40,000 nt of DNA from Neocallimastix lanati (nom. inval.) (taxonomy: Eukaryota; Neocallimastigomycota; Neocallimastigomycetes; Neocallimastigales; Neocallimastigaceae). The notes under the pieces are model-generated. The model was not told where the DNA came from, did no database searches, and saw only the letters and a program-made list of their open reading frames with translations. Location of the stretch: contig JACVTC010000293.1 in assembly GCA_016946835.1 (NCBI GenBank), forward strand, positions 10,001 to 50,000, given 5' to 3'. Position numbers and translations under genes: made by a program. Below are positions 9,565-40,000 of this stretch, in pieces; within the stretch, counting starts at the first letter, position 1, and each line of letters opens with the position of its first letter.

Positions 9565-9565
9565 A

Positions 9566-12604: not shown

Positions 12605-12678
12605 AAGAAATTAAATTAAAAATCTATCTTCATTTTTTTTTTTCTTTGTTAAAGTTTTTTTTTTGAAGCTAGATTTTT

Positions 12679-12685
12679 GGAGGAG
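12679..12685 (+). promoter_or_regulatory. copia A polypurine tract
   Basis: GGAGGAG directly before the TG of the 3' LTR, preceded by a T-run. This is the expected plus-strand DNA primer, and copia B has the same sequence. Confidence 0.8.
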
Positions 12686-15890: not shown

Positions 15891-16097
15891 CAATCATAAA
15901 CAAATATATAAATAATTATTATTTAAAAGAAATAATAATATATTTTTTCAATTAAATATTATTAAATTACTATGTCAAAAGAAATATTAATATATTCTAT
16001 AAAAAAGAATTAGAAAAAATTATTTTTAAAATTGAATATTAATAAATTATTTATATAAAAAAAGAATATTTATTATTTATTTAATTATTATTTATTT

Positions 16098-16598
16098 TGA
16101 TAAGGTTCAGTTAAGAAATTAACTTTATACACTTAAAGAGAGGCTTTAAGTATAGTTTTCTTTTAAGAACTTTTTATTTATTTATTATATATTTTTGAAC
16201 TATTTAGCTCCTTGAGCAATTAAACATTTTTTGTACTATTTATACTTTATCTTAATTATAAATTTTATATTATTATAACATATGATTTTTACTATGAAAT
16301 ATATAAATTATATTAAGGAGTAAATATCAGGTGTTATAATAATATTCTCTAATAAAATTCCTATTCTTAATAAATGTTATAAAATTACTATTTTTCTATA
16401 TGAACTATAATAAAATATTTCCTAAACTCTAATTAATATATTTTTCATATTTACTATTTATCTATTTGTTTTACATTAATTTCTTACATTTTGTATTCAT
16501 TAATTTCATTTAATACGTAATTATTATTTACATTTATATTTTATAATTATTTTATGATATTTTTACACATTTTCTTATTTTATTATCATTTCATATCA
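16098..16598 (-). repeat. gypsy 1 3' LTR
   Basis: On the minus strand begins TGATATGAAATGATAATAAA and ends CTGAACCTTATCA. The same 501 bp recurs at 36059-36559. Confidence 0.93.
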
Positions 16599-16611
16599 TT
16601 TCTCCCTCCTA
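16599..16611 (-). promoter_or_regulatory. gypsy 1 polypurine tract
   Basis: The minus strand reads ATAGGAGGGAGAA directly before the 3' LTR TG, the expected plus-strand primer. It lies ten bases past the pol stop. Confidence 0.8.
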
Positions 16612-16620: not shown

Positions 16621-19560
16621 TTACTCTAAAGTTGTCTTATATTTTTGAACATTTTTAAGATGAACAGGTCTTTCAAGAACTAAACCTGTATCTGGGTCCG
16701 CTAGTTTTACCGCATTAAAATGTTTTCCAATAACCTTATAAGGGCCTACAAAATATGGATCTAATTTAAATCTACTGAAATTTTGTACTTTTACCAGATC
16801 ATTTTTCCTAATAGTATTTTGTTTATTATTTCTAAAGTTTTCATTCCTTTCTTCTTCCCATTTCTTATTAGTTTTTTTCATATTTTGGCTTGCTTCTAAA
16901 ACCCATTTATAATGATTGCAAAATTTTTCCAATAATTTTTCTTCATTTGTGGCTTGTACATTAGATGTTGGTAATGTTGTGGCTAATTCGAATGGTTGTT
17001 GGTCAATTCTTCCATATACCAACTCAAAACTGGAATGTTTGGTGGCTGTATTCCTGGAAGTTCTTAGAGCCCATAAAGCAGATGGTAACACTATATCCCA
17101 ATCTTTTTCCTTTTGACCTAAAAGGCGTAAATATTTCCCAATTTCCCTATTTCTATTTTCCGTCATACCATTCGTTTCTGGATGATATGTAGTTGAAAAA
17201 TGAATGTATACATCATATAAGTCCAAAAATATTCTTGTTAATTCTGAATTAAATTGTGGACCGTTATCTATAGTTACTACTTGTGGCGTGCCATGTCTTG
17301 CAAACACTCTACTAAAGAAATATATTACATCTTTTGAAGTGACAGTAGCCAAAGGCTCTGCTTCTACCCACTTAGTGAAATAATCAACTATCACTATGAT
17401 ATATTGATTATTTCTTTCAGTAATAGGTAATGGGCCAATAATGTCCATGCCTAAATGTATGAAAGGACCCTCGACTGGAGTGGCGTAGCGTTCTGTGGCG
17501 TCAACAGATTTATTATTTTTACATAATTGGCATTTAGAGCATAATTGAATGGTTGCTTTAACATCATTACTCATACCTTTCCAGTAGTAGTGTCTCTTTA
17601 ATCGTTGATACGTCTTGTCAAAACCCTCATGACCAATCTTGTGGGCTTCCCAGATAAGCTTTATTCTTTCTTCATATTCTTCTACAATTCTTCGGTAAGT
17701 TCCATTATCTCTGAAATATTTCTTATTATCAATTTCAAATATTTTATCTTTGATAAATTTCTTTAAGAATTCAGTGTTTTCTTCATCATTTTCTTCTAAA
17801 TTTAATGAATTTATTACTGTATCATCATCTATATTAATAATTGTATGAGATACTAAAGGAGTCACATGATCATTCAAAGAATCAAAAATTTTTTTATAAT
17901 TTAATGTATTTAAATTTTTTATGTTTTGACATTTATTATGATAGTTCTCGACTTCATACCACATTGTATATACTACATCTTTACGTGTCGGTTTGCTTCC
18001 AGAATGGATATTTAAACTTTCTAAGATATTACTAAAATCAAGGTTTGTATATTTTGGTTTATTATTATCTAAAATATTCGATAAATTATTAATACAATTC
18101 ATATCTGAAGCGCACGTTTCCTCCGTCAAGCCACTTGTAACATTATATATCGTGACTTTACTATTATTTTCTTCAATAATAGGAAGTAATCTTGAAAGAG
18201 AATCAGCCAAAGCATTCTTTTTCCCTGGTTCATATTTTACGATAACTTTTAACATGCTTAAATCAATGCACCAACGAGCGTGACGTGCATTGTTTGGTTC
18301 TTTATTATTAAATAAACCGACTAAAGGTTTGTGGTCGGTATATACGATAGTTTCATAAGGATTACCTTCAATATAAAATTTGAATTGCTTAACACAGTAA
18401 TGAACAGCTGTACCTTCCAAATCTGTTATGCTATAGTTTCTCTCAGCTCTAGATAATGAACGACTTACAAAGTGGATTGGACGTTCTAATTCACCAGCCA
18501 CTTGTAGTAGAACGCCACCCAAACCTTTTTTTGATGCATCTGTTCTAATAAGGAATTGTTTAGTATAGTCTGGAAACATTAATATTGGGGCTTTAATTAA
18601 ACACTCTTTCAATTTATTAAAACTAGTAGTTTCTTCTTTGCTAATATTAAAAGTTATACCTTTACGTAGTAATTTAGTAAGTGGTGCAGCAACTTGTGCA
18701 AATTGATTTATGAATTTACGATAGTAACCAATTGCACCTAAAAACGACTTAAGTTCTGAAACATTATTAGGAATTACCCAATTTTTTATTGCCATAACCT
18801 TTTTATCATCGGTTTTAAGTCCTTCCTTAGATATCACGTGACCTAACACATGTACCTCCTCCCTCATAAATTGACATTTTTCAATGTTAATTTTTAAATT
18901 AAATTTTTCGAAAATATCCAGAACTAAAATTAAATGTTTCACGTGTTCTTCAGGAGTTTTAGAAAAAATTAATACATCATCTATAAAAACATATACACAA
19001 ACGCCTATTAAGTCAAATAAAATTTTATTCATTTCCCTTTGGAACGTAGCAGGAGCGTTACACAGACCAAATGGCATTACCTTGAATACAAAATTGCCAT
19101 ATTTAGTGGTGAAACAGGTTTTATCCACACTGTCATCATCCAATAAAATTTGATGATAACCAGAAAATAGATCCAAAGTAGAAAAAATTTCCGCTCCTCC
19201 AAGGTTATCAAATATTTCGTCAATATAAGGCAGGGAATAAGAATCCGGAACTGTAATATCATTAAGTTTTCTATAGTCCACACAAAAACGCCAATCATTA
19301 GAATTGTTTTTGGGGACTAATACTACTGGAAATGACCATTCAGAAGATGAAGGTATTATTATTCTTTTATTAATCATGTCCTTAATATGGTCTTTAATAA
19401 TAGCTGATTTGACATTATTAGTACGATAATATCGTAGCTTAATAGGGGCAACACCCTCCTTAATTTTAATATGATGGGGTCCCAAGCTAGAAGGGGTCAA
19501 ATCATTAGTTGAGGTAGCAATAATAACTATATGGTCTTCTAAAATAGATGTGATTAAATC
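16621..19560 (-). pseudogene. gypsy 1 pol: reverse transcriptase, RNase H, integrase
   Basis: Long open part of the polyprotein. Counting from about 19500: RT with LDLFSGYH (motif A, near residue 110) and VFIDDVLIF (catalytic DD, near 174); RNase H with TDASKKGLGG (near 319) and YTDHKPL; integrase HHCC finger (HKIGHEG..CSKCQLC, near 620-655) and DDE residues in LGMDIIGPL (about 684), TIDNGPQF (about 744) and TENRNREIG (about 779). The C-terminus ends at HLKNVQKYKTTLE without a chromodomain. All catalytic residues are present. The frame is separated from the protease frame by two shifts: the protease frame stops at 19619, a middle frame (MTPSEFIHSDRMLDHVDGN) stops near 19550, and this frame then carries WKYVDLITSILEDHIVIIAT. 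Compared with gypsy 3, both shifts are lesions rather than programmed signals. Confidence 0.88.
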
Positions 19561-19618
19561 TACATATTTCCATCCACGTGATCTAACATACGGTCGCTAT
19601 GAATAAATTCACTTGGGG

Positions 19619-20655
19619 TCATCTTATCCTTAACTTTTGTGGCGTAGCAGTGTAAATTATTATTTTCATTTCATCATCAATTTTTTTTACAAAACAAGCA
19701 ATCTTTTCTGAGTCCAAATCAGAAATAGTATCACACACGTATTGACAAGAAGAGTCTTCATTAATGAAAAATAAAGCTTTTAATGGAGGTATAACAAAGA
19801 AGTTGTATTGGGCTTGCGTATAGTAACCAACTAAAATATCAAAATAGGCATCATCGTTTTCTATAATTCTAAAGGCGGTTTCGAATTCCAAAAATCCTAT
19901 TTTTACGGGTAAGAATACTAATTGACCTTGAGAGGGTTCTCCTGTAGAGAGAGCTTGTAATATTCTACCTCTACTGATACCGGCTGAAATATATTCTCCA
20001 GGTAGAGAATTAAAGAATCTGGAGGAAACAATATTAAGGTTACTACCCGAGTCTACAAGTAGTCGACACGTGACATCATCCACCGTGGCTGGAACAATAG
20101 CAATATCATCTTTCCTTACTTCCCTACTTTTACTAATATAATCATGGTCAACATTATTAACCATAGTCATTTGAACATCTAAGTTATTAAGGGCACTTAC
20201 AATATTGGTATTCTTTTCTAATTTTAGCCCCTTAATTAGGTCAGCCCTATATCTAGGACTACCATTTACCAATTGTGATAAAGATATATTGCATTTTAAG
20301 TTAGCAATATCCTTAATAATATCATAAGGTTCCACATTATTCATTAGACGTAAATTGCGTGGACATTTCTTATTGACATTGGAACCTTTATTACTTTGGT
20401 TATTGGTATTGTTATTCGTACTATCTATTATCATATTTGGATTATTAAAATTATTAATATTATTATTGTTAGAGTAACTGTTTTGTGGCGCATTACTGGT
20501 AGACAAATTTGTATCCCTATCAGGTGATAAATTAATATTTTCGGTATTTAATAAATTTGTACTACTAAAATTATTATTGTTAACATTGTTGATATAATTG
20601 TGACTACTATTATTAATATTGTCGTTATCATTATACTTGTTACTATTATTGTTAC
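19619..20655 (-). pseudogene. gypsy 1 pol: Asn-rich linker end and aspartic protease
   Basis: Continuation of gypsy 1 pol downstream of the gypsy 2 insertion. About 120 residues rich in Asn and Ser lead to a conserved segment (SYDVIKDL-like, here EPYDIIKDIANLKCNI) and the retroviral-type protease with active site RLLVDSGSNLNIV (Asp near 20050). The frame stays open to TGA at 19619-19621, before the RT linker, because of a frameshift relative to gypsy 3. An apparent N-terminal extension to 20698 is read from the gypsy 2 LTR and does not belong to this protein. The protease should mature Gag and Pol if made. Confidence 0.85.
20651..20655. repeat. target-site duplication of gypsy 2, left copy (GTTAC)
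   Basis: GTTAC before TGTAACGAAT is repeated at 33779-33783 directly after ATTCGTTACA. Five bp is standard for Ty3/gypsy. The target sequence happens to equal the terminal GTTAC inside the LTR end. Confidence 0.9.
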
Positions 20656-21266
20656 TGTAACGAATATTGGAATATCCGTGTTTTAAAGAGTGTAACACAA
20701 TAGGTAAGCACTTTTTGATTAATAAGTAATTTGGTTTTTTTTAAAATATAGTTTTATTAATTAAGAAATTTAAAAATATTAATTATAAAGATTAATTATT
20801 GTAATATTTCGAATTACTTATTAATTAATTTAATAATTAATAAAAACACAATTTTTAAAAAATATTTTTTTTTTGGCTGCGAAATTCACTCCTATTTATA
20901 GTTTTTCAAAATTTAAATCCATAAAAATTTAAAACCATAAAATCATTAAAAAGTTTCATAAAAATTGATTATTTTCGGTTAAAAAGAATCTAAAGGAAAT
21001 AATGATAAAAGATAAATTAAAATAGAATTTCTATCTGATTTGTTTCTATTAATTTCTAAGAATTTCTTTTGTTAATTTTTACAGAAATTTATACAGAAAC
21101 AAATACAGAAACAAATACAGAAATGAAGTATAAAAATTCTTTAAAATTTAAATGATATAAAATTTTAGTAAAGGTGTGAGTCGAACCCTAGTGGTTCAGG
21201 CTGAGGTCATAGTGACTAACCACTATGCCAGCATTCTAATTTCTAATTTTTTTAAGATTCGTTACA
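20656..21266 (-). repeat. gypsy 2 3' LTR
   Basis: 611 bp, TG..CA on both strands because the terminal ten bases are inverted repeats (TGTAACGAAT/ATTCGTTACA). It contains a TATA box (TATAAATA, minus strand, 20893-20900) and a tRNA-like block at 21178-21230. Confidence 0.95.
21175..21240 (-). promoter_or_regulatory. tRNA-like block with A and B boxes in the gypsy 2 LTR (3' copy)
   Basis: On the minus strand TGGCATAGTGG (21230-21220) fits the Pol III A-box consensus at every position, and GGTTCGACTC (21187-21178) fits the B box. They are 43 bases apart start to start, a tRNA-like spacing, and TTTT follows about 14 bases after the block. It does not fold as a real tRNA: the T-stem does not pair, while long hairpins do form (CATAGTG/CACTATG; TAGTGGTT/AACCACTA). 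It looks like a tRNA-derived or SINE-like promoter relic. The second copy is at 26660-26725. Confidence 0.55.
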
Positions 21267-21280
21267 TGGTCCTCCTCTAG
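21267..21280 (-). promoter_or_regulatory. gypsy 2 polypurine tract
   Basis: The minus strand reads CTAGAGGAGGACCA directly before the LTR TG. Purine-rich and in the right place to prime plus-strand DNA. Confidence 0.75.
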
Positions 21281-21490
21281 GATTCGGATGCCAGACGAAT
21301 CTTTTGCTTTAAATCTAAACTATTTCTAATTCTAACTTTTTTATAATAATAAACTATAACTAAAATACTTATAGGAGTGATAATTTAATTAATACATTGA
21401 ATAATAAAAATTACATGAATTTTAAGTTTTAAAAATAAAGTATAAAAATAAAACTATCTAGAATAAATGTTTTTGAACAATTTAAAATAA

Positions 21491-21521
<31 letters not shown>

Positions 21522-21589
21522 ATCATAAGTTAGAATGATTAATAGTACTTTGATGAAATAAAATTTATTTTTGATTAAATGATTTATAT
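21281..21589 (-). other. gypsy 2 3' untranslated region
   Basis: About 300 bp between the pol stop and the polypurine tract, AT-rich, with a 25-T run at 21491-21515. No gene seen. Confidence 0.6.
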
Positions 21590-26129
<4,540 letters not shown>

Positions 26130-26141
26130 TGGTGTTTTTAT
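26130..26141 (-). promoter_or_regulatory. gypsy 2 putative self-priming site
   Basis: The minus strand directly after the 5' LTR reads ATAAAAACACCA, with no TGG start, so it is not a usual tRNA 3'-end site. Its first ten bases are complementary to GTGTTTTTAT inside the LTR (26334-26325), 51 bases downstream of a TATA box (26385-26378). If transcription starts there, the RNA 5' end can fold back on this site, as known for Tf1-type chromoviruses. Confidence 0.5.
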
Positions 26142-26377
26142 TGTAACGAATATTGGAATATCCGTGTTTTAAAGAGTGTAATACAATAGGTAAGCACTTT
26201 TTGATTAATAAGTAATTTGGTTTTTTTAAAATATAGTTTTATTAATTAAGAAATTTAAAAATATTAATTATAAAGATTAATTATTGTAATATTTCGAATT
26301 ACTTATTAATTAATTTAATAATTAATAAAAACACAATTTTTAAAAAATATTTTTTTTTTGGCTGCGAAATTCACTCC

Positions 26378-26385
26378 TATTTATA
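26378..26385 (-). promoter_or_regulatory. TATA box in gypsy 2 5' LTR
   Basis: TATAAATA on the minus strand within CTATAAATAGGAG, the clearest TATA box in the LTR. It lies 51 bases upstream of the proposed RNA start at 26334. Gypsy 3 now separates this LTR from its outer 20 bp but leaves the TATA box and downstream region intact. Confidence 0.5.
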
Positions 26386-26659
26386 GTTTTTCAAAATTTA
26401 AATCCATAAAAATTTAAAACCATAAAATCATTAAAAAGTTTCATAAAAATTGATTATTTTCGGTTAAAAAGAATCTAAAGGAAATAATGATAAAAGATAA
26501 ATTAAAATAGAATTTCTATCTGATTTGTTTCTATTAATTTCTAAGAATTTCTTTTGTTAATTTTTACAGAAATTTATACAGAAACAAATACAGAAACAAA
26601 TACAGAAATGAAGTATAAAAATTCTTTAAAATTTAAATGATATAAAATTTTAGTAAAGG

Positions 26660-26725
26660 TGTGAGTCGAACCCTAGTGGTTCAGGCTGAGGTCATAGTGA
26701 CTAACCACTATGCCAGCATTCTAAT
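26660..26725 (-). promoter_or_regulatory. tRNA-like block with A and B boxes in the gypsy 2 LTR (5' copy)
   Basis: Same sequence as at 21175-21240. A box TGGCATAGTGG at 26715-26705 and B box GGTTCGACTC at 26672-26663 on the minus strand. In this copy the block lies in U3, upstream of the TATA box. Confidence 0.5.
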
Positions 26726-26735
26726 TTCTAATTTT

Positions 26736-27527
26736 TAATACAGAATGAACAAATAATACTAATTGTGCTAGAATAATATAAATTATTCTAACCTTATAGA
26801 TTATTCTATTCTATATAATTGGAACTTTCCAATATTCTTCAAATATTACTAAATAGAAATCTTAAGTTAATAAATCACTAATTAACTTATAATTCCTTTT
26901 TGAATTATCGATCCGATTCCATTATAATGTATTAAAAATCTTTAGCCAAGAATATTGTCCTTGCCCACTTAATATATTAATATTATATTTCTTTTGTATT
27001 ATGTTATATTGAAAATAATCAAATCTATTTAATTAGTTATTAAAATTTTCGTTATCAATTTAAGTTTATTTTTAATTACTAAATTTAACTAAGCCACAAT
27101 AAAATATTCTGTATAATCTCTTTATTTTTATTTTATATATATTAGTATTAAACTATTATTAAATAATTAATAATTCAATAATATATAACTACTATTTATA
27201 ACAATAATATTATTAACTAAAATAATAATTTAATTTCAATTTAAATGTTTTATTTATAAAAATAATTAGTAATTAGTTTATTAAAAAAATAGTTAGGCTT
27301 TACAAATTTTAATTTGATAAAAAATATAAATACATGTAATTTTAGTGAAATAAAATATAATCAATAACTTTCTTTTTATTAAATAAATAATTATATTATT
27401 ATTTTTCTTTTATAAATTTAAATAAATAAATAAATATTGATTTTAAAACAAATTATTTTTTTTTTATTGTAATTTTATTATTTGTGTTAATTATTATTAT
27501 ATTCCTAAAATTATATGAACCATACCA
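26736..27527 (+). repeat. gypsy 3 5' LTR
   Basis: Begins TAATACAGAATGAACAAATA and ends ATATGAACCATACCA. The ends are not a clean TG..CA pair at the left. The same sequence is at 32965-33758. Confidence 0.9.
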
Positions 27528-27535
27528 TGAAAAAT

Positions 27536-27552
27536 TGGTGGAGATATCGGGG
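27536..27552 (+). promoter_or_regulatory. gypsy 3 primer-binding site
   Basis: TGGTGGAGATATCGGGG eight bases after the LTR. TGG pairs with a tRNA CCA end, and the rest implies a tRNA whose 3' end reads CCGATATCTCCACCA. I cannot name the tRNA. Gypsy 1 has the same site at 36041-36055. Confidence 0.75.
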
Positions 27553-28031
27553 AATATAATAATAAATTAATACATTAGGGATAAAATTATAATATTAATA
27601 AATAATTTTTCTAATAAAACAAATAATTTTTTTAAAAAACAATTTTTATATTTTTAACTAATTATTATTAATTGTTAAAAATATTAATTAATATTAAATT
27701 AAACTAATATTCGTGCATAGATTTCCGGGTTAAGTTTATCCTACATAGTAATTGGGCTAGTAGGCTCTGGACTGCTATTTTTTATATTGAAAATAGTAAC
27801 CGTGGCACACGCGTGGCATGACACCTTTCAAGAGGTAAGCTGCACGTCAGACAGTGTGTACTATCAGATTGCACGATTATTATAATTTAATAAATGATTA
27901 ATAATAATAAATAATTAATAATTTTATTAGTTAAAAGATTTATTTTTTTTAATTTTTTTTTATTTTTACTTTTTATAACAATTTATACATTACGAGGTTT
28001 AGCATTCTATAGATACAATAAATTTTATTTA
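27553..28031 (+). other. gypsy 3 leader with a G+C-rich block
   Basis: The first and last parts are ordinary AT-rich sequence. The segment from about 27715 to 27880 is much richer in G+C, with GTGGCACACGCGTGGCATGA and AGCTGCACGTCAGACAGTG. AGAGGTAAGC at 27831 resembles a 5' splice site and TTTAG at 27998-28002 a 3' splice site, so a 168-base intron is conceivable. Packaging or translation-control RNA structure is the alternative. Confidence 0.5.
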
Positions 28032-28949
28032 ATGAGAACATCCAGTACTTCCAGTACTCCAACAGAGAGTACTCCAGAAAGTAAGCTTAGCTTCCGAGAA
28101 TTAAAGAAAGAATTAAAAGATTTTGAAAAGCTTACTAAACAAAACCTAGACATCAATTCCTGGGCAAACGAGTTAAAGGCATGGATAAAATACCAACATA
28201 TCAAGGATCCTGAAACTATTTTTACTGCTTGTATATTAACGGCTTCTGGAGAACCAAGAGAAATTATCCAAGAACTAGAAGATGGAAATGACCTTATTGA
28301 AGATGAAGATTCTGATTTCGATAGCGATAGTGAAGGAGAAGATGATGAAGAAAGTGAATCTACTAGCACCTACCCAAGCCTTGATGAAATCATAAATCAT
28401 CTGAAGACTTTCTATGGACTTAAAGAAGATCAAACCAACTTGTTACGAGAATTGCGTTCCATGAAAATAAAGAAGAACGAGAAAGTTAAAGATTTTAATG
28501 TCCGTTATAGATCTTTGTACCATAAATTGGATAAAAAGAGAAGAAGAAAAATTAGTATTTTAGATTATGCAGATTCCTTAACCAATAATCCTGACGCATG
28601 GAGAAAGGTTATGCTTAAAGACAATATTTCTATTACCAAAGCATTCGCTATAGCTGAAAAAGTTGATCGTTTATCTATTAAAAATAGTACTGAATATTAT
28701 GATAAGACTCATTACAATCTCCTTAACTCTAAAAGTAATTTTAATAAGAACATTTCAAATGATTTTAACAAACCAAAAACCCACAAAAATGTATCTATAG
28801 AAAATATCACTAACAAGATGAAAGAAATGAAAATTAGTACTTGCTGGTTTTGTAGCAATGAAGGACATACCAAACGAAACTGTCCTAAATTAAATTCTAT
28901 ATTGGAAAATAACCGCAAGAAGTTTTATGAAAATCATTTAAACCACTAA
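28032..28949 (+). CDS. gypsy 3 gag
   Basis: A 305-residue capsid/nucleocapsid protein. It starts at the first ATG after the leader (MRTSSTSSTPTES). A Ser/Thr-rich N-terminus is followed by a Gag core with an acidic loop (DEDSDFDSDSEGEDDEESES, about 98-117), a basic helix (KLDKKRRRK) and a CCHC knuckle CWFCSNEGHTKRNC near 28842-28882. The segment KKNEKVKDFNVRYRSLYHKLD corresponds to RNETVVEFNKRFKEIYKKLN in gypsy 1, a typical retrotransposon Gag motif. The last codons CAT TTA AAC CAC TAA contain the slippery heptamer T TTA AAC, through which a fraction of ribosomes should enter pol. Confidence 0.9.
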   Translation: MRTSSTSSTPTESTPESKLSFRELKKELKDFEKLTKQNLDINSWANELKAWIKYQHIKDPETIFTACILTASGEPREIIQELEDGNDLIEDEDSDFDSDSEGEDDEESESTSTYPSLDEIINHLKTFYGLKEDQTNLLRELRSMKIKKNEKVKDFNVRYRSLYHKLDKKRRRKISILDYADSLTNNPDAWRKVMLKDNISITKAFAIAEKVDRLSIKNSTEYYDKTHYNLLNSKSNFNKNISNDFNKPKTHKNVSIENITNKMKEMKISTCWFCSNEGHTKRNCPKLNSILENNRKKFYENHLNH

Positions 28950-28989
28950 AAGGGAGTAGAAGCACTCCCATCGTCAAAAAAATTGCTTC
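28937..28989 (+). promoter_or_regulatory. gypsy 3 -1 ribosomal frameshift signal: T TTA AAC plus H-type pseudoknot
   Basis: The heptamer at 28937-28943 is in exact X XXY YYZ register with gag (codons TTA 28938, AAC 28941). An 8-base spacer (which includes the gag stop) is followed by stem 1 GGGAGT (28952-28957)/ACTCCC (28964-28969). The loop AGAAGC contributes GAAGC (28959-28963), which pairs with GCTTC at 28985-28989 to form stem 2 across a 15-base A-rich loop. Slipping back one base gives TTT AAA CCA CTA AAA GGG, the start of the open pol frame. The geometry (spacer 8, stems 6 and 5, short first loop) is that of known viral frameshift pseudoknots. Confidence 0.85.
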
Positions 28990-31900
28990 AGTCTGCCATC
29001 GTCCCAAAATAGTTGACTTAAAAGAAGATGATGATTATGAAGAAACTGCTGATTTCCAAGAAGGTACTACTACGGATTATTACGAAGATTTTGATGATAA
29101 GTCGGATGGTTCCAAAGAATTGAATTACTTAGTAAACGTTATAAAGAGAAAGGCAAATCATAAAGATGAAGAGACTAGTGACCAAAGAGAAAAGAGGGTT
29201 CACCGTAGTCTAAGAGATGATCCTAAGCCAATAGTTACTCCAGGTTTACGAAAACAAAAAGAAAATCAATTAAGGGGAACATCGCGACCAGTCAAAAAGC
29301 CAACAACTCAATTACATCCTTCGATTATGGTTCAACCTAGAATAGAAAAAGAAAAGAGAATTGAGAAAGAGCTAAGAGATAAGGAAAGAGCTAGTACTAG
29401 TACTTCTGTGGAAAATAATAATAATAATAGTAATGTTAATGTTATTAATGAAGAAACTTCTCAGGAAGAAAATAATTCTAAACAAACTTTAAATAAATTA
29501 ATTCAAGAAAAATCATCAGAAAAGTCAACTGAAATTATGCCAACTAGAATTCCAAGAAGAATACAAATGCAAACTGATTGTGATAGTTATGACGTGATCA
29601 AAGATTTAAACTCCAGTAATTGCAATATTACATTTGGACAATTATTGGACGTTGCTCCAAAGATACGGTCTCAAGTATCACAAGGACTTAAATTAGAAAA
29701 GAATAATACTAAAATTTCAGGTGCAGTGGATAATATGTGTGCTACTACAATAATAACGAACAATATAGATCATACATATAAAAGTAAACATCATGAACCA
29801 CAAGAAGATGATATTGCTATGGTTGATGTAATAGTAGATGGAGTTCGTGGTAAGGCTTTAATAGATTCATGTAGCAACTTAAGTATTATCACAAAGCAAT
29901 TTTTAGATAAATTACCTTATCAGTATGAACCTATAGGAGTTAGTGCAGGACGAATACGTTTAGCAACGATGAATGATGATTACTCAGAAGATGTGTTAAT
30001 CAAAGTTCCCGTAAAAATTAATGAACTAGAACTACTTGTTACGTGTAGAATTATAGACAAGGAAGATCCATTCTATGATATATTAATCAACCTCAAAACT
30101 CAAATTGATAATCAGTTATTTATACATCCAATTAGATATAGTCTTTGTCGATTTAATGATCAAGGTTTAATTGAAGAAATTGCACCTATTAATAATGAAT
30201 ATGATGACGAAGAAAAATTATTATGTGTAATCAAAGCATTGAATCACCAAGAAGCTAAGCAACAATTGAAAACGATTGAAGGATTACCACCCATAAAATA
30301 TATATATGACAGAGTTTTTCAAAGTACAATTAATTCAAATTATAGAGAAGCTATTACTAAATTACTTGAAGAATATATTGATATAATTGCAACTTCTTCT
30401 GAAGAATTAACACCTTCAGATTTATCACCACACAAAATTATTCTTAAGGAAGGAGTTAAACCTATTAAACAAAAATTTTATCGACTTAGTAAATTAAAAA
30501 CAGATATCTTAAAAGAAGAATTAACCAAACTCATATATAAACGATTAATTGAACCTTCATGTTCAGAATGGTCATCACCAGTAGTACTTGTGCCTAAAAA
30601 GAACGGTAAATGGCGCCTGTGTATTGACTATAGGAAAGTAAATGAAGCAACTAAGAAGGATTCTTATTCTTTACCAAATATTGAGGAAATTTTTGATAGC
30701 TTAGATGGAGCAAAAATCTTCTCAACATTAGATCTTTATTCCGGTTATCATCAAATATTAATGGATGATGATAGTGTTGAAATCACTACCTTTACAACTA
30801 AGTTCGGAAACTACCAATTCAAGGTAATGCCCTTCGGTTTAACAGGTGCTCCAGCTACATTCCAAAGAGAAATGAACCGTATACTATTTCCCTTAATAGG
30901 AAAATGCGTCTATAACTTTATAGATGATATTTTAATCTACTCAAGAACTGAAGAAGAACACCTAGAACATCTTAAACAAGTCTTAGAAATATTCAAGGAA
31001 CATAAGTTAAAAATCAATATCGAAAAGTGTTCTTTCATGCAAACTGAAGTAGAAGTACTTGGACATAAAGTATCCTCAGAAGGTTTAAGTCCATTGGAAA
31101 ACAAAGTTGAAGCTATTAAAGAATGGAAGGCTCCCTCTAACATTCATGAACTTCGATCATTTTTAGGAGCCATTGGATATTATAGAAATTTTATTAAGGA
31201 CTTTGCAAAAGTTACTGCTCCTCTCTGCACTCTATTAAGAAAAGGTATTAAGTTTGAATGGAAAAAGGAACAAGAAGAAAGTTTTAAAATTCTTAAGGAA
31301 AGATTAATCAATGCCCCAATATTAAGATTTCCTAGATTTGATAGAGAATTTATTATAAGAACAGATGCTTCCTATGATGGAATAGGCGGTGTGCTTTTAC
31401 AAAAGGATGATGAAACTGGAAAGGAGCATCCGGTTCATTATATTAGTAGAAGTTTATCTAAATCGGAAAAGAATTATGGAATTACGGATCTAGAAGGTGC
31501 CGCTCTAATTTACTGTATTAATAAATTAAAATCTTATATTATGGGAAATCCTAAGCAAACTATAGTATATACAGACCATAGACCCTTAATCGGATTACTT
31601 AAAAATAAGGAACCACAAAACTCTCGCCATACAAGATGGTGTTTGACTGTCAGTATGTTAGGAATTGATTTACGATATGAAGCTGGGAAGAATAATGTTG
31701 TTGCAGACGCTTTATCAAGAATGAAAAATGAAAAAGAAAAAGTTATCTTAACAACACAAATTATCAAAGAACAAGATGAAAACCTGCTTTCAAGAACCAT
31801 TAAGGAATTTATTGAAGAAAAATTTACGACAATTGATGGTGTGGACTACTTTGTTGATGGCAATAATTATAGAAAATTAGTTACAGATACAAAAGAAAAA

Positions 31901-32941
31901 CTTCAATTAATTTTTCAAGCACACAGTATAGGACACGAAGGCTATTACAAGACATACCAACGTTTGAAAAAGAGCTACTATTGGAACAATATGGTTAATG
32001 ACATTAAGCGAATTATAGGTAAATGTGAAAAATGTCAATTAAATAAATCTCAACCATACCCTGAACCAACGGAAGATAAACCAACTGAAGTGGAAGGACT
32101 ATTTACACACTTAGGATTGGACATTATAGGACCTCTAAATAAAACCAGAAATAATAATCAATATATAATCGTTGTGGTTGATTATTTTACTAAATGGGTT
32201 GAGACAGAGCCCACTGAAAATGTTACTTCTCAGGATGTGATAAAATTTTTAATTAATGTATTTGCTCGACACGGTGTACCTCAAATTATCACTACTGATA
32301 ATGGAACACAATTTACATCAGATATGACAAAAATCTTCCTTGATTTATATGATGTATATGTTAAATTTATCACTCCATATCATCCTGAAAGCAATGGTTT
32401 AGTTGAGAATCGTAATAAAGAAATTGGAAAATTATTACGATTACTAGGAAAACAACACAAAGAGTGGGATGAAATTTTACCATCTGCACTTTGGGCTTTA
32501 AGAACTACTAAAAACTCAATTACCAACCATTCAAGCTTTGAATTAGTTTATGGAAGGGAGGACCAACAACCTTTTGACATTGCTGCCAGACCAACTAAGG
32601 GTATAAATAAGTCTTCTGACGAAATTCTACTGGAAAAATTTGTATCACACTACCAATGGGTAATGGAGGCCGCGTCTAATATCAAAAATGCTTCGAAGTA
32701 TTGGGCTACTAGGAGAGAAGAAAAGACCAGTATGAATCAAGCTAAACGAATAAAACCAGGTGATTTAGTACTAGTAAGAAACTTTAATCGAACTAAATTA
32801 GAACCTTACTTTGTTGGACCTATGAAAGTGGTAAAGAAACAATTCAATACAGTCACTTTAGCTGATCCTGCTACTAATATACAAATGAATCGTAATGTTC
32901 ATTTGAAAAATATTGTCAAGTTTAACTCAGCTTCTACCTAG
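28937..32941 (+). CDS. gypsy 3 pol: protease, reverse transcriptase, RNase H, integrase
   Basis: About 1334 residues in the -1 frame relative to gag, open from the slippery site (FKPLKGSRSTPIV). There is no suitable ATG at the beginning, as expected for a frameshift product. Counting from 28937: a charged linker (1-190), protease near 309 with KALIDSCSNLSII, where the active-site DSG reads DSC; RT with STLDLYSGYHQI (about 598) and NFIDDILIYS (about 661); RNase H TDASYDGIGG (about 808) and YTDHRPL; integrase HHCC (HSIGHEG..CEKCQLN, about 995-1030) and DDE in LGLDIIGPL (about 1061), TTDNGTQF (about 1120) and VENRNKEIG (about 1156). It ends NVHLKNIVKFNSAST, no chromodomain. Apart from the protease change it looks functional. 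Confidence 0.93.
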   Translation, partial: FKPLKGSRSTPIVKKIASVCHRPKIVDLKEDDDYEETADFQEGTTTDYYEDFDDKSDGSKELNYLVNVIKRKANHKDEETSDQREKRVHRSLRDDPKPIVTPGLRKQKENQLRGTSRPVKKPTTQLHPSIMVQPRIEKEKRIEKELRDKERASTSTSVENNNNNSNVNVINEETSQEENNSKQTLNKLIQEKSSEKSTEIMPTRIPRRIQMQTDCDSYDVIKDLNSSNCNITFGQLLDVAPKIRSQVSQGLKLEKNNTKISGAVDNMCATTIITNNIDHTYKSKHHEPQEDDIAMVDVIVDGVRGKALIDSCSNLSIITKQFLDKLPYQYEPIGVSAGRIRLATMNDDYSEDVLIKVPVKINELELLVTCRIIDKEDPFYDILINLKTQIDNQLFIHPIRYSLCRFNDQGLIEEIAPINNEYDDEEKLLCVIKALNHQEAKQQLKTIEGLPPIKYIYDRVFQSTINSNYREAITKLLEEYIDIIATSSEELTPSDLSPHKIILKEGVKPIKQKFYRLSKLKTDILKEELTKLIYKRLIEPSCSEWSSPVVLVPKKNGKWRLCIDYRKVNEATKKDSYSLPNIEEIFDSLDGAKIFSTLDLYSGYHQILMDDDSVEITTFTTKFGNYQFKVMPFGLTGAPATFQREMNRILFPLIGKCVYNFIDDILIYSRTEEEHLEHLKQVLEIFKEHKLKINIEKCSFMQTEVEVLGHKVSSEGLSPLENKVEAIKEWKAPSNIHELRSFLGAIGYYRNFIKDFAKVTAPLCTLLRKGIKFEWKKEQEESFKILKERLINAPILRFPRFDREFIIRTDASYDGIGGVLLQKDDETGKEHPVHYISRSLSKSEKNYGITDLEGAALIYCINKLKSYIMGNPKQTIVYTDHRPLIGLLKNKEPQNSRHTRWCLTVSMLGIDLRYEAGKNNVVADALSRMKNEKEKVILTTQIIKEQDENLLSRTIKEFIEEKFTTIDGVDYFVDGNNYRKLVTDTKEKLQLIFQAHSIGHEGYYKTYQRLKKSYYWNNMVNDIKRIIGKCEKCQLNKSQPYPEPTEDKPTEVEGLFTHLGLDIIGPLNKTRNNNQYIIVVVDYFTKWVETEPTENVTSQDVIKFLINVFARHGVPQIITTDNGTQFTSDMTKIFLDLYDVYVKFITPYHPESNGLVENRNKEIGKLLRLLGKQHKEWDEILPSALWALRTTKNSITNHSSFELVYGREDQQPFDIAARPTKGINKSSDEILLEKFVSHYQWVMEAASNIKNASKYWATRREEKTSMNQAKRIKPGDLVLVRNFNRTKLEPYFVGPMKVVKKQFNTVTLADPATNIQMNRNVHLKNIVKFNSAST

Positions 32942-32948
32942 CTTGAGT

Positions 32949-32963
32949 CTTAGCGGGGGCATC
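32949..32963 (+). promoter_or_regulatory. gypsy 3 polypurine-tract region
   Basis: CTTAGCGGGGGCATC lies just before the 3' LTR. AGCGGGGG is the only purine-rich block there, although it contains one C and is three bases from the LTR, so it is a weaker match than in the other elements. Confidence 0.55.
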
Positions 32964-32964
32964 T

Positions 32965-33758
32965 TAATACAGAATGAACAAATAATACTAATTGTGCTAG
33001 AATAATATAAATTATTCTAACCTTATAGATTATTCTATTCTATATATAATTGGAACTTTCCAATATTCTTCAAATATTACTAAATAGAAATCTTAAGTTA
33101 ATAAATCACTAATTAACTTATAATTCCTTTTTGAATTATCGATCCGATTCCATTATAATGTATTAAAAATCTTTAGCCAAGAATATTGTCCTTGCCCACT
33201 TAATATATTAATATTATATTTCTTTTGTATTATGTTATATTGAAAATAATCAAATCTATTTAATTAGTTATTAAAATTTTCGTTATCAATTTAAATTTAT
33301 TTTTAATTACTAAATTTAACTAAGCCACAATAAAATATTCTGTATAATCTCTTTATTTTTATTTTATATATATTAGTATTAAACTATTATTAAATAATTA
33401 ATAATTCAATAATATATAACTACTATTTATAACAATAATATTATTAACTAAAATAATAATTTAATTTCAATTTAAATGTTTTATTTATAAAAATAATTAG
33501 TAATTAGTTTATTAAAAAAATAGTTAGGCTTTACAAATTTTAATTTGATAAAAAATATAAATACATGTAATTTTAGTGAAATAAAATATAATCAATAACT
33601 TTCTTTTTATTAAATAAATAATTATATTATTATTTTTCTTTTATAAATTTAAATAAATAAATAAATATTGATTTTAAAACAAATTATTTTTTTTTTATTG
33701 TAATTTTATTATTTGTGTTAATTATTATTATATTCCTAAAATTATATGAACCATACCA
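32965..33758 (+). repeat. gypsy 3 3' LTR
   Basis: 794 bp, same as 26736-27527 apart from an extra TA (ATATATAATTGG versus ATATAATTGG) and one G/A change (TTTAAATTTA versus TTTAAGTTTA). It is followed directly by the T7 run of the gypsy 2 LTR. Confidence 0.9.
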
Positions 33759-33778
33759 TTTTTTTAAGATTCGTTACA
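33759..33778 (-). repeat. gypsy 2 5' LTR, outer 20 bp
   Basis: TTTTTTTAAGATTCGTTACA, the end of the LTR cut off by gypsy 3, followed by the GTTAC duplication and the linker of gypsy 1. Confidence 0.9.
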
Positions 33779-33783
33779 GTTAC
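33779..33783. repeat. target-site duplication of gypsy 2, right copy (GTTAC)
   Basis: Matches 20651-20655 and marks the return to gypsy 1 sequence. Confidence 0.9.
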
Positions 33784-33915
33784 TACTTATAATATCATTA
33801 TTATTATTACTATTATAAGCATTATTATTAATATCATTATCATTATAAATATTATAATTATTATTATTATTTTTATTATTATTAATATTATTAATATTAT
33901 TATTATTATTATTAA

Positions 33916-33958
<43 letters not shown>

Positions 33959-34303
33959 ATTATTATTATTATTGTTCTGAATATTTGTAATATTATTTTG
34001 TGTTTTATTTAATGATTCTTTCTTCTTTAATTTATTTAATTGTGATTTAGGAATAATTAAATTCCTTAAAGATATATTATCCTCTACATTAGTATTTTGG
34101 GTAATATTGTCTCTTGATGTTTCCTCAACATCATGAGATGAATTACCTCGTAAATTGTATTTCTTTTTATTATTATTATTCTCCTGAGAATTAGACTTCC
34201 TCTTTGCCGCAGCGATAAATAGCTTATTTGGTTTCTCAGGAGTGTAATAAGCGGCGGTTACTTTATTTTCGGGAGTCCGCAAACTCCCTTTATTTAGTTT
34301 TTT
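33779..34303 (-). CDS. gypsy 1 pol N-terminal part: linker with long asparagine runs
   Basis: The pol frame entered by -1 frameshift from gag at 34303 (KKLNKGSLRTPENKVTAAYY). It begins with about 60 residues of basic and polar linker, equivalent to the start of gypsy 3 pol (both share LKGS..TP at the beginning). It then passes into uninterrupted Asn runs encoded by AAT repeats (about 33800-33990). There is no ATG near its start. The frame is cut by gypsy 2 at 33779; a few residues and a stop read beyond that come from the gypsy 2 LTR. The rest of the linker resumes at 20655 in the same frame. The Asn runs are probably a disordered spacer before the protease. Confidence 0.8.
34254..34303 (-). 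promoter_or_regulatory. gypsy 1 -1 ribosomal frameshift signal: A AAA AAC plus H-type pseudoknot
   Basis: On the minus strand the last gag codons are GAA AAA AAC TAA, so A AAA AAC (34303-34297) is in X XXY YYZ register. An 8-base spacer TAAATAAA is followed by stem 1 GGGAGT (34288-34283)/ACTCCC (34276-34271). The loop TTGCGG offers GCGG (34280-34277) to pair with CCGC (34257-34254) across a 13-base A-rich loop. The -1 frame then reads AAA AAA CTA AAT AAA GGG, opening the pol frame. The arrangement equals that of gypsy 3, with a different heptamer and a different but still complementary second stem. Confidence 0.85.
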
Positions 34304-35241
34304 TCTTCAAGATTATCTAATTTTTCTAGGAGAGCATTTAATCTCTTCAGTTTGGGACAATCGTATTTCAAGTGTCCCTCCTGTTCACAAATGTAACAAG
34401 TCTTTATCCTTAAATTCTTCATTTTATTGGTTAGGTCTTCCATGGTGTCATTTTCTTTGGGAGACTTTCCCTTTACTTGTGGAGAAAGAGTTTTAGGTTT
34501 AATTACTATCCTATTTCTATTGTCTCCACCTTCTTGATATAAGGATCTAAAATTATTATTCTTCCTTTTATTTGTTTCATGATAGATTTCATCATAGAGT
34601 TCAGCTTTTTCATAAGCCTCCTCCAATGATGAACAACAGGAAGAATGAACTCCTGACCAAACCACAGTTCTTGGTTTCAGAGTTCCCTCGTAGTCATATA
34701 TAGAAATATATTTCTTACTTTCTTCATTTAGTTTCTTATATATTTCTTTAAATCTCTTGTTAAACTCGACTACTGTTTCATTTCTTTCAATACTCATGTT
34801 TTTAATCTCGGATAATAGCTGACTTTGTTTCTTCTCGTGTAACCATTCAGTGAGAAGAAAACTTTCTAACCCCTCCATGGAGAGATTATCAGGATTTTGT
34901 GTAACATATTCGTCAATATATTCCGGAATGTCTCCTGCGGAGGCTAATTTCATACAAAGGACTACATCATTCATATCTGTTTCTTCAAACAATTTCATCC
35001 AGGAAGTAATTTGCTTAATCCAGGACTTTACGTTTTTATTACCAGCACCTAACTTCTGGATAGCGTTTAACATTAACATTTTATCCTTTGAATCAAATGT
35101 CATTTTGGACCTAACTATTGTACTTGAATTGTCAGAGTTAAAGGGAGAATTATTAACACTACTATCTTCAAGGCTTGCGTTTGAATGGCTAGAACTACTA
35201 GAAGATGAATAACTTTTCTTATGAATAAAGAAATTTTCCAT
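34294..35241 (-). CDS. gypsy 1 gag
   Basis: A 315-residue capsid/nucleocapsid protein. The ATG at 35241 is the first after the leader, giving MENFFIHKKSYSSSSSSSHS. A Ser-rich N-terminus is followed by the Gag core (MLMLNAIQKLGAGNKNVKSW; SIERNETVVEFNKRFKEIYK) and a CCHC knuckle CYICEQEGHLKYDC near 34363-34402. The organisation and the core motif parallel gypsy 3 gag, with low sequence identity. The frame is intact. It ends NLEEKN at TAA 34294-34296, where the frameshift signal overlaps the stop. Confidence 0.9.
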   Translation of the reverse strand: MENFFIHKKSYSSSSSSSHSNASLEDSSVNNSPFNSDNSSTIVRSKMTFDSKDKMLMLNAIQKLGAGNKNVKSWIKQITSWMKLFEETDMNDVVLCMKLASAGDIPEYIDEYVTQNPDNLSMEGLESFLLTEWLHEKKQSQLLSEIKNMSIERNETVVEFNKRFKEIYKKLNEESKKYISIYDYEGTLKPRTVVWSGVHSSCCSSLEEAYEKAELYDEIYHETNKRKNNNFRSLYQEGGDNRNRIVIKPKTLSPQVKGKSPKENDTMEDLTNKMKNLRIKTCYICEQEGHLKYDCPKLKRLNALLEKLDNLEEKN

Positions 35242-36055: not shown

Positions 36056-36058
36056 ATT

Positions 36059-36559
36059 TGATAAGGTTCAGTTAAGAAATTAACTTTATACACTTAAAGA
36101 GAGGCTTTAAGTATAGTTTTCTTTTAAGAACTTTTTATTTATTTATTATATATTTTTGAACTATTTAGCTCCTTGAGCAATTAAACATTTTTTGTACTAT
36201 TTATACTTTATCTTAATTATAAATTTTATATTATTATAACATATGATTTTTACTATGAAATATATAAATTATATTAAGGAGTAAATATCAGGTGTTATAA
36301 TAATATTCTCTAATAAAATTCCTATTCTTAATAAATGTTATAAAATTACTATTTTTCTATATGAACTATAATAATATATTTCCTAAACTCTAATTAATAT
36401 ATTTTTCATATTTACTATTTATCTATTTGTTTTACATTAATTTCTTACATTTTGTATTCATTAATTTCATTTAATACGTAATTATTATTTACATTTATAT
36501 TTTATAATTATTTTATGATATTTTTACACATTTTCTTATTTTATTATCATTTCATATCA
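36059..36559 (-). repeat. gypsy 1 5' LTR
   Basis: 501 bp, differs from 16098-16598 at one base by eye (AATAATATATTT here, AATAAAATATTT there). Confidence 0.93.
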
Positions 36560-36663
36560 ATTTGATTATTATTTATTTGATTATTAAAAAAAGGCACATA
36601 CAAAAATACGCCACATTGCGAAATGCACTAGATTCATTTCTTATAAATAGTTTAAATTATATT
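36560..36663. other. flank of gypsy 1 with a recurring terminal motif
   Basis: Contains CGCCACATTGCGAAATGCAC at about 36604-36623, almost the same as the motif near 1851 and related to GTGCATTTCG..ATGGCG near 4649 and 4776. It may be the end of a DNA transposon in the locus where gypsy 1 landed. Confidence 0.45.
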
Positions 36664-39600
36664 GAATAAAATAAAATAAAATAAAATAAAATAAAATAAA
36701 ATAAAATAAAATAAAATAAAATAAAATGAAATAAAATAAATAGTAGAATATTAAATATAAAGTACAGATTGAATAAAATAAAATAAAATAAATAGTAGAA
36801 TATTAAATATAAAGTACAGATTGAATAAAATAAAATAAAATAAATAGTAGAATATTAAATATAAAGTACAGATTGAATAAAATAAAATAAAATAAATAGT
36901 AGAATATTAAATAAGAAAGTACAGATTGAATAAAATAAAATAAAATAAATAGTAGAATATTAAATATAAAGTACAGATTGAATAAAATAAAATAAAATAA
37001 AATAAAATAAAATAAATAGTAGAATAATAACTATAAAGTACAGATTGAATAAAATAAAATAAAATAAATAGTAGAATATTAAATATAAAGTACAGATTGA
37101 ATAAAATAAAATAAAATAAATAGTAGAATATTAAATATAAAGTACAGATTGAATAAAATAAAATAAAATAAATAGTAGAATATTAAATATAAAGTACAGA
37201 TTGAATAAAATAAAATAAAATAAATAATAGAATATTAAATATAAAGTACAGATTGAATAAAATAAAATAAAATAAATAGTAGAATATTAAATTTAAAGTA
37301 CAGATTGAATAAAATAAAATAAAATAAATAGTAGAATATTAAATATAAAGTACAGATTGAATAAAATAAAATAAAATAAATAGTAGAATATTAAATAAGA
37401 AAGTACAGATTGAATAAAATAAAATAAAATAAATAATAGAATATTAAATATAAAGTACAGATTGAATAAAATAAAATAAAATAAATAGTAGAATATTAAA
37501 TTTAAAGTACAGATTGAATAAAATAAAATAAAATAAATAGTAGAATATTAAATATAAAGTACAGATTGAATAAAATAAAATAAAATAAATAGTAGAATAT
37601 TAAATATAAAGTACAGATTGAATAAAATAAAATAAAATAAAATAAAATAAAATAAATAGTAGAATATTAAATATAAAGTACAGATTGAATAAAATAAAAT
37701 AAAATAAATAGTAGAATATTAAATATAAAGTACAGATTGAATAAAATAAAATAAAATAAATAGTAGAATATTAAATATAAAGTACAGATTGAATAAAATA
37801 AAATAAAATAAAATAAAATAAAATAAATAGTAGAATATTAAATATAAAGTACAGATTGAATAAAATAAAATAAAATAAATAGTAGAATATTAAATATAAA
37901 GTACAGATTGAATAAAATAAAATAAAATAAATAGTAGAATATTAAATATAAAGTACAGATTGAATAAAATAAAATAAAATAAATAGTAGAATATTAAATA
38001 TAAAGTACAGATTGAATAAAATAAAATAAAATAAAATAAAATAAAATAAATAGTAGAATATTAAATATAAAGTACAGATTGAATAAAATAAAATAAAATA
38101 AATAGTAGAATATTAAATATAAAGTACAGATTGAATAAAATAAAATAAAATAAATAGTAGAATATTAAATATAAAGTACAGATTGAATAAAATAAAATAA
38201 AATAAATAGTAGAATATTAAATATAAAGTACAGATTGAATAAAATAAAATAAAATAAATAGTAGAATATTAAATATAAAGTACAGATTGAATAAAATAAA
38301 ATAAAATAAATAGTAGAATATTAAATATAAAGTACAGATTGAATAAAATAAAATAAAATAAATAGTAGAATATTAAATAAGAAAGTACAGATTGAATAAA
38401 ATAAAATAAAATAAAATAAAATAAAATAAAATTAAATAAAATAAAATAAAATAAAATAAAATAAAATAAAATAAAATAAAATAAAATAAAATAAATAGTA
38501 GAATAATAACTATAAAGTACAGATTGAATAAAATAAAATAAAATAAAATAAAATAAAATAAATAGTAGAATATTAAATATAAAGTACAGATTGAATAAAA
38601 TAAAATAAAATAAATAGTAGAATATTAAATATAAAGTACAGATTGAATAAAATAAAATTAAATAAAATAAAATAAAATAAAATAAAATTAAATAAAATAA
38701 ATAGTAGAATATTAAATATAAAGTACAGATTGAATAAAATAAAATAAAATAAAATAAAATAAAATAAAATAAAATAAATAATGAAGTAATATAGAAGTAA
38801 TATAAAAGAATAAAGTATTAATAAAAATAAAATAAAATAAAATAAAATAAAATAAAATAAAATAAAATAAAATAAAATAAAATAAAATAAAATAAAATAA
38901 AATAAAATAAATAAAATAAAATAAAATAAAATAAAATAAAATAAAATAAAATAAAATAAAATAAAATAAAATAAAATAAAATAAAATAAAATAAAATAAA
39001 ATAAAATAAAATAAAATAAAATAAAATAAAATAAAATAAAATAAAATAAAATAAAATAAAATAAAATAAATAGTAGAATAATAACTATAAAGTACAGATT
39101 GAATAAAATAAAATAAAATAAATAGTAGAATATTAAATATAAAGTACAGATTGAATAAAATAAAATAAAATAAAATAAAATTAAATAAAATAAAATAAAA
39201 TAAAATAAAATAAAATAAAATAAAATAAAATAAATAGTATAATAATAACTATAAAGTACAGATTGAATAAAATAAAATAAAATAAATAGTAGAATAATAA
39301 TTATAAAGTACAGATTGAATAAAATAAAATAAAATAAATAGTAGAATATTAAATAAGAAAGTACAGATTGAATAAAATAAAATAAAATAAATAGTAGAAT
39401 ATTAAATATAAAGTACAGATTGAATAAAATAAAATAAAATAAATAGTAGAATATTAAATATAAAGTACAGATTGAATAAAATAAAATAAAATAAATAGTA
39501 GAATATTAAATATAAAGTACAGATTGAATAAAATAAAATAAAATAAATAGTAGAATATTAAATATAAAGTACAGATTGAATAAAATAAAATAAAATAAAA

Positions 39601-40000
39601 TAAAATTAAATAAAATAAAATAAAATAAAATAAAATAAAATAAAATAAAATAAAATAAAATAAATAGTAGAATAATAACTATAAAGTACAGATTGAATAA
39701 AATAAAATAAAATAAATAGTAGAATATTAAATATAAAGTACAGATTGAATAAAATAAAATAAAATAAATAGTAGAATATTAAATATAAAGTACAGATTGA
39801 ATAAAATAAAATAAAATAAATAGTAGAATATTAAATATAAAGTAAAGATTGAATAAAATAAAATAAAATAAATAGTAGAATATTAAATATAAAGTACAGA
39901 TTGAATAAAATAAAATAAAATAAATAGTAGAATATTAAATATAAAGTACAGATTGAATAAAATAAAATAAAATAAAATAAAATTAAATAAAATAAAATAA
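36664..40000. repeat. 52-bp minisatellite array with embedded AAAAT runs, continues past window edge
   Basis: More than 50 units of about 52 bp: AGATTGAAT, three AAAAT repeats, AAATAGTAGAATATTAAATA and TAAAGTAC. Variants include TAAGAAAGTAC, ATTTAAAGTAC and AATAATAACTATAAAG. In places the AAAAT part has expanded to long runs (for example 38820-39065). Groups of variant units recur, for example ATAATAG followed by ATTTAAAG at about 37224 and again at 37431, a period of about four units. It has no coding potential. The unit is shared with 5045-5912. Confidence 0.93.

Follow-up and report, generated by a model that had tools for sequence, protein, structure and literature searches.

The stretch of Neocallimastix lanati DNA analysed here (40,000 nucleotides, hereafter referred to as the window) raises the question of how two Ty3/gypsy retrotransposons come to carry the same short RNA structure at their gag-pol junctions, and how their pol frame, being -1 relative to gag, is reached by the ribosome. 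Judging from the junction sequences that could be compared, the gag-pol junction of a large group of non-chromodomain Ty3/gypsy elements of anaerobic gut fungi is very probably a -1 frameshift signal with a predicted H-type pseudoknot.

In the mechanism proposed, a ribosome reaching a heptamer of the form X XXY YYZ would meet a short H-type pseudoknot 8 nt downstream. Stem 1 of this pseudoknot would consist of 5 bp, being GGGAG/CUCCC or, less often, GGAAG/CUUCC or GAGAG/CUCUC, and stem 2, usually of 4-7 bp, would join the stem 1 loop of 8 nt to a site 9-15 nt beyond. Some ribosomes would then slip back by one base, thereby bypassing the gag stop codon, which lies within the spacer or shortly past it, and generating Gag-Pol. 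We infer slippage, its rate and the role of the pseudoknot as stimulator from the anatomy of the junction and the selection acting upon it.

Gag-pol junctions of two nested elements

The window, with a G+C content of 23.1%, is part of a 199-Mb genome assembled in 762 contigs, to which all genome-wide counts refer. Both of its junctions (Table 1) belong to Ty3/gypsy LTR retrotransposons, as is evident from the Pfam domain order of the two pols (RVT_1, RNaseH, Integrase_H2C2, rve) and from their LTR pairs. No match to a Chromo domain, the criterion for a chromovirus, was obtained in the pol of gypsy 1 or gypsy 2 at E 0.01. Gypsy 2 (plus strand) sits as an insertion within gypsy 1 (minus strand), and both insertions look young because their LTR pairs are 99.6% identical. 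The sequence TTGGTGGAGATATCGG, located at or just past the end of the 5' LTR, is common to gypsy 1 (36056-36041, minus strand) and gypsy 2 (27535-27550, plus strand), and is likely to be a primer binding site shared by the two elements.

The surroundings are likewise rich in mobile DNA. A third LTR element (20649-26736, minus strand), which contains a chromodomain, a single gag-pol ORF (21593-25453) and LTRs that are 99.3% identical, separates the parts of gypsy 1 together with gypsy 2. An element judged by eye to be copia-like (6574-12967, plus strand) contains two ORFs, 8083-9564 and 9542-12130, which differ in frame (+1) and the second of which is split by a stop, and an inverted partial copy of this element is found at 2461-4307 (minus strand). 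A MULE-type transposase fragment (Pfam; 2-1015, plus strand) is related to an inverted fragment at 13161-13913 (minus strand; 75-78% identical), and long AT-rich tandem arrays of AAAAT-type units (4985-5900 and 36536-39700) flank the nested elements. An Rfam scan of the window returned 0 matches at the gathering score.

Table 1 Features of the gypsy 1 and gypsy 2 elements and their gag-pol junctions (window positions).
Feature	Position	Strand	Remark
Gypsy 1 element with nested insertions	16096-36562	-	LTRs 16096-16601 and 36057-36562
Gypsy 1 gag ORF, 315 aa, CCHC knuckle near C-terminus	34294-35241	-	zf-CCHC 1.6e-05 (Pfam)
Gypsy 1 slippery heptamer (A AAA AAC), in phase with gag	34297-34303	-	
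Gypsy 1 gag stop TAA, directly 3' of heptamer	34294-34296	-	
Gypsy 1 8-nt spacer TAAATAAA, containing the gag stop codon	34289-34296	-	
Gypsy 1 stem 1, 5' arm GGGAG	34284-34288	-	Possible sixth pair T34283-A34276
Gypsy 1 stem 1 loop TTGCGG (6-bp reading of stem 1)	34277-34282	-	
Gypsy 1 stem 2, 5' arm GCGG, inside stem 1 loop	34277-34280	-	
Gypsy 1 stem 1, 3' arm CTCCC	34271-34275	-	ACTCCC at 34271-34276
Gypsy 1 A-rich loop from stem 1 to stem 2, 13 nt	34258-34270	-	
Gypsy 1 stem 2, 3' arm CCGC	34254-34257	-	
Gypsy 1 pol, N-terminal part, -1 frame	33764-34306	-	Broken off by gypsy 2 insertion
Gypsy 1 pol, RT-RNaseH-integrase part	16621-19596	-	Pfam
Gypsy 2 element	26735-33759	+	LTRs 26735-27528 and 32964-33759
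Gypsy 2 gag ORF, 305 aa	28032-28949	+	
Gypsy 2 slippery heptamer (T TTA AAC), in phase with gag	28937-28943	+	
Gypsy 2 stem 1 hairpin GGGAG-TAGAAGCA-CTCCC	28952-28969	+	
Gypsy 2 stem 2, 5' arm GAAGC(A)	28959-28964	+	
Gypsy 2 stem 2, 3' arm (T)GCTTC	28984-28989	+	
Gypsy 2 pol (RT-RNaseH-integrase), in the -1 frame with respect to gag	28931-32941	+	Pfam

The initial annotation had described the gypsy 1 junction as A AAA AAC, 8 nt, GGGAGT-TTGCGG-ACTCCC, 13 nt and CCGC, and all of these pieces were recovered at 34303-34254 on the minus strand; its description of gypsy 2 was found to be equally accurate, the same layout being present at 28937-28989, with the gag stop located three bases further on than in gypsy 1. 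The Gag proteins of the two elements, which had been called much diverged, are indeed so, with 27% identity over 276 aligned positions, the RT-integrase parts being 59% identical (515/874).

Spacer and stem 1 among the junctions of the genome

Allowing for at most two mismatches, the motif GGGAGTN6ACTCCC was matched twice in the window (0.09 expected) and at 201 places in the genome, the reversed control yielding 0. The pattern AAAY-N8-GGGAG-N8-CTCCC was encountered at 1123 places of the genome (548 + 575), its backward version at none. Combination of TTTAAAC with the hairpin at other distances gave 1 place for spacers of 0-7 nt and 0 places for spacers of 9-24 nt (backward control 1), these two counts pertaining to TTTAAAC only and the count of 1123 for 8 nt to the wider AAAY; the 8-nt spacer is nearly exclusive.

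Junctions were gathered in two ways, namely by Gag protein matches, which presuppose no stem, and by stem 1 patterns, which do, the 3' arm of stem 2 being absent from every search pattern. Gag protein matches retrieved 132 loci (a count of loci, some of which overlap or are near-identical), of which 120 have, besides a heptamer and the 8-nt spacer, every one of the five pairs of stem 1, with G-U counted as a pair. The other 12 comprise three with one broken stem 1 pair (such a break being seen in the single copies L063, L316 and L363) and nine without stem 1, the latter including two with a different Gag C-terminus (L047, L064), one that is interrupted (L057), one that has lost the hairpin (L318), three that are decayed or off target (L317, L331, L351) and two taken to be stretches that end short of the junction (L342, L362). 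In L299 and related loci, the zinc knuckle of Gag is separated from the heptamer by a very long Asn-rich tail.

When the variable positions were clustered at 75% identity, 43 clusters were obtained; removal of 7 chance matches located away from gag ends and of 3 decayed variants left 33 families, 22 of which contain protein-retrieved copies, and the later addition of three more (L364, L365 and L367) brought the number of families compared to 36. This set, drawn from the first places of the pattern listing and from protein matches, represents at least 36 families and is no census. Four heptamer types occur across the families, and a non-canonical heptamer, TTTGAAC, is present in two copies (L307 and L359).

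Stem 1 had initially been read as 6 bp: the hairpin itself was confirmed, but its sixth pair (T-A) is possible in 4 of the 36 families, and a 6-bp stem 1 was consequently rejected as a family rule, the stable core being 5 bp. In gypsy 2, the A of this sixth pair can lengthen stem 2 instead (GAAGCA/TGCTTC). The idea that stem 1 extends downwards into the spacer throughout was also rejected, since by eye this is possible in some families and not in others.

Across the 36 families, stem 1 is GGGAG/CTCCC in 27, GGAAG/CTTCC in 8 and GAGAG/CTCTC in 1, the corresponding numbers being 16, 5 and 1 among the 22 families with protein-retrieved copies. Among the 33 families aligned as ungapped rows, both sides have changed at pair 3 in five families (G-C to A-U) and at pair 2 in a single family; the other three pairs (1, 4 and 5) are invariant. 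GGAAG/CTTCC is also found in L364 and L365, which are families of another loop type, so that the change at pair 3 seems to have arisen in two classes separately. In the covariation rows, which were chosen for one of the three stem 1 types (the choice-free figure being the 120 of 132 loci mentioned above), 0 of 500 shuffles reach either the number of paired cells or the covariation score; the families share descent, and shuffle counts, here and below, are not probabilities. Slid versions of stem 1 pair at most 71.5% of the cells as compared to 100% in register, and RNAalifold returned the same five pairs. Two further measures were unremarkable, the number of pairs changed on both sides being matched by 13 of 500 shuffles and the number of further pair types by all 500.

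Stem 2, class D and alternative readings

For all 36 families, the best helix between the stem 1 loop and the downstream sequence has a mean stacking score of -6.19, compared to -3.46 upon swapping of loops and -2.63 upon shuffling of the downstream sequence, each control reaching the observed value in 0 of 1000 trials. When the 14 families of class D are left out, a class set apart only after its missing stem 2 had been seen, the mean becomes -8.76 versus -5.28 (swap) and -2.92 (shuffle), with 0 of 1000 for both, and reduction to 10 families, each with a different loop core, again gave 0 of 1000 for both controls. Outside class D, stem 2 pairs in 22 of 22 families, gypsy 1 and gypsy 2 included, with its 3' site 9-15 nt downstream; L367, which has no stem 2, was assigned to class D on the strength of a downstream CAAACC and of its sister copy L371, the tally otherwise being 22 of 23. 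The sampled DNA consists of one fungal genome and one distinct contig (L224, itself of class D), and the stem 2 results apply to this genome.

About eight distinct stem 2 helices were distinguished, among them GAAGC(A/U)/(U/A)GCUUC, GCGG/CCGC, GCAAU/AUUGC, UGUACU/AGUACA, AGUG/CACU, GAACGUU/AACGUUC and UCAAU/AUUGA, with up to 7 bp in L365; the stem 2 of L348 has only 3 bp by score (GCG/CGC) and that of L263 only 4 bp. Some class A families have A-U as the junction pair of stem 2, and L055 has U-A. The recurrent K-I-A protein motif overlaps with the 3' arm of stem 2, and in L364 and L365 KIA is replaced by KIE, the loop differing correspondingly. The proposal that this conserved RNA structure argues for selection on RNA is borne out, in that stem 1 covaries and stem 2 pairs through several unrelated sequences.

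Class D retains the stem 1 hairpin, and no stem 2 above chance was detected in its 14 families, 2 of which reach a score of -5 (loop swap 331 of 1000, shuffle 527 of 1000). The claim that stem 2 pairing is maintained therefore holds over all 36 families and in 22 of them, and is not supported above chance in these 14. The class D loop is AAGGNNNN in 13 families, AAGAACAA in L367 and AAGGACAA in its sister copy L371. A loop GG is accompanied by CC at downstream nucleotides 11-12 in 13 of 13 AAGG-loop families and, at the level of copies, in 43 of 45, L312 and L337 being the exceptions, which amounts to two pairs and no demonstrable helix. The spacer is without a stop codon in the class D copies L320, L354-L358, L360 and L361, gag continuing through the hairpin in L320 to a stop 10 codons past the heptamer. 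It is conceivable, if unlikely, that the letters of stem 1 are under selection beyond their pairing, GGGAG/CUCCC being read by the ribosome or by a host RNA-binding protein, and that class D is a second architecture, in which the loop GG and the downstream CC replace stem 2; if so, the lineage would document switching between a pseudoknot and a near-hairpin as stimulator.

Class D also bears on the reading according to which stimulation is due to the stem 1 hairpin alone and stem 2 is incidental or a minor modulator, since these 14 of 36 families keep stem 1 with a stem 2 not above chance, and in gypsy 1 a competing 7-bp extended hairpin rivals stem 2. Set against this are the 22 families that keep stem 2 by means of about eight unrelated sequences, a result attained in 0 of 1000 trials by swap and shuffle alike and holding over all 36 families, and we consider the hairpin-alone reading quite improbable. 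Still less probable is access to pol by another route, be it stop readthrough, re-initiation or a spliced transcript. The gag stop of gypsy 1, being located immediately after the heptamer, speaks for such a route, but in all 33 families tested the heptamer lies in phase with gag and pol is in the -1 frame, whereas readthrough would stay in frame 0. In the same 33 families the gag stop is found within 10 codons, and the -1 frame is open for at least 52 codons in 32, mostly through to the end of the stretch, the exception being L275 with 14 open codons.

That the conserved letters represent only the pol-frame protein, G[SR]xxTP ... KIA, we regard as barely credible. G, T/S and P and a downstream K-I-A or N-Q-T do recur in many families, but Pro is changed to Ser where stem 1 is GGAAG/CTTCC, and GSxxTP to ESxxPL where it is GAGAG/CTCTC (ESSRPL in L348, L349 and L353), with pairing being kept; protein as the sole constraint on stem 1 is refuted by this retention of pairing through amino-acid changes. 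The initial annotation, which would have been refuted by a stem 1 hairpin constrained by protein alone, is thus upheld, G[SR]xxTP giving way to GRRxTS, GSSQSS or ESSRPL with pairing intact. Furthermore, Gly and Pro at the site are encoded by GGG and CCC in 27 of 36 families, as opposed to 14 of 189 Gly codons (GGG) and 26 of 209 Pro codons (CCC) in five pol pieces, some stem 1 sites included. At conserved G/P/T/A/V positions of pol, codons are identical in 0 of 43 columns among gypsy 1, gypsy 2, L224 and L237, and in 8 of 101 and 6 of 52 columns in two sets of three pols, gypsy 1 and gypsy 2 sharing the codon at 50 of 136 such columns. Because amino acids change with pairing kept and synonymous sites elsewhere in pol differ, stem 1 is constrained at the RNA level.

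Relatives beyond this genome and known frameshift systems

The search for Gag relatives returned 51 proteins, those bearing a name being labelled Orpsp1_1 (a code which we take to denote Orpinomyces), Piromyces sp. E2 and Neocallimastix sp. 'constans'; the closest, 98% identical, may be of the same species as the studied genome. A knuckle is present in 41, and 37 of these 41 end in LN followed by 0-2 residues, as expected from T TTA AAC plus a stop. Three of 120 pol relatives (P0092, P0097 and P0161) start within the transframe stretch, with GSLCSP, GRRKTS or GSKQSP.

Outside the genome, the pattern AAAC-N8-GGGAG-N8-CTCCC (14 specified bases) has an in-frame upstream CCHC at 2 of the 177 matches listed, these being L224 and L237. 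The Gag of L237 is 100% identical to copies in the studied genome, for which reason L237 is not independent, and L224, which is arranged as in class D, does not exceed 79% identity to the studied genome. Within genome_contigs, L237 and L224 are filed under Methanosphaera and Erysipelotrichaceae MAGs; as they carry retrotransposons of the fungal group, both contigs appear to be contaminants of the MAGs. Among viral contigs, a search with pol yielded no confirmed relative, and the L224 junction had no match in a phage search.

The initial annotation knew of no description of this pseudoknot family, and in the open-licence literature on frameshift pseudoknots, Ty3/gypsy elements and anaerobic-fungal transposons, as far as its texts were available (extracts of PMC8778642 included), there is apparently none of this signal. 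The signal is of a known kind, and the junctions constitute a new, large and well-supported family of it. With a fixed spacer, a nearly fixed stem 1, about eight stem 2 helices and more than 1000 copies, they provide a natural mutational series in one genome, on which the part played by stem 2 and by loop length in setting the frameshift rate can be tested directly, as can, with class D, the ability of a 5-bp hairpin to act without stem 2. The signal also offers a handle for the annotation of split gag-pol genes in anaerobic fungi.

A survey of animal retroelements published in 2003 is reportedly a paper by Gao and others. According to the available extracts of PMC5009743, -1 pol frames were found in 28 of the 51 animal retroelements of the 2003 survey, and the animal LTR retrotransposon survey, as summarised in those extracts, names no conserved pseudoknot family. 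In the same extracts, a -1 signal is said to comprise a heptamer and an H-type pseudoknot separated by 5-9 nt, a range within which the 8-nt spacer of the present junctions falls. As in MMTV and SRV-1 gag-pro, a heptamer is followed by an H-type pseudoknot with two short stems, and five class A families have an unpaired A between the stems like the wedge A of MMTV, as far as the extracts of PMC5009743 describe it. Unlike MMTV and SRV-1, the hosts are fungal Ty3/gypsy elements, stem 1 is nearly fixed as GGGAG/CUCCC, and the stems abut directly in 14 of the 22 families outside class D. PEG10 and PNMA, which are Ty3/gypsy-derived mammalian genes, resemble the present junctions by description, in that frameshifting occurs with a pseudoknot as stimulator, as stated for PEG10 in those extracts (PMC5009743); in contrast to the mobile, multi-family lineage of the gut fungi, they are single host genes. 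Another fungal retrotransposon, Tca2 of Candida albicans, has a potential pseudoknot past the gag stop, but its gag and pol are, according to the extracts of PMC2194720, separated by a UGA codon bypassed by hypothesised readthrough, unlike the -1 heptamer of the gut-fungal elements.
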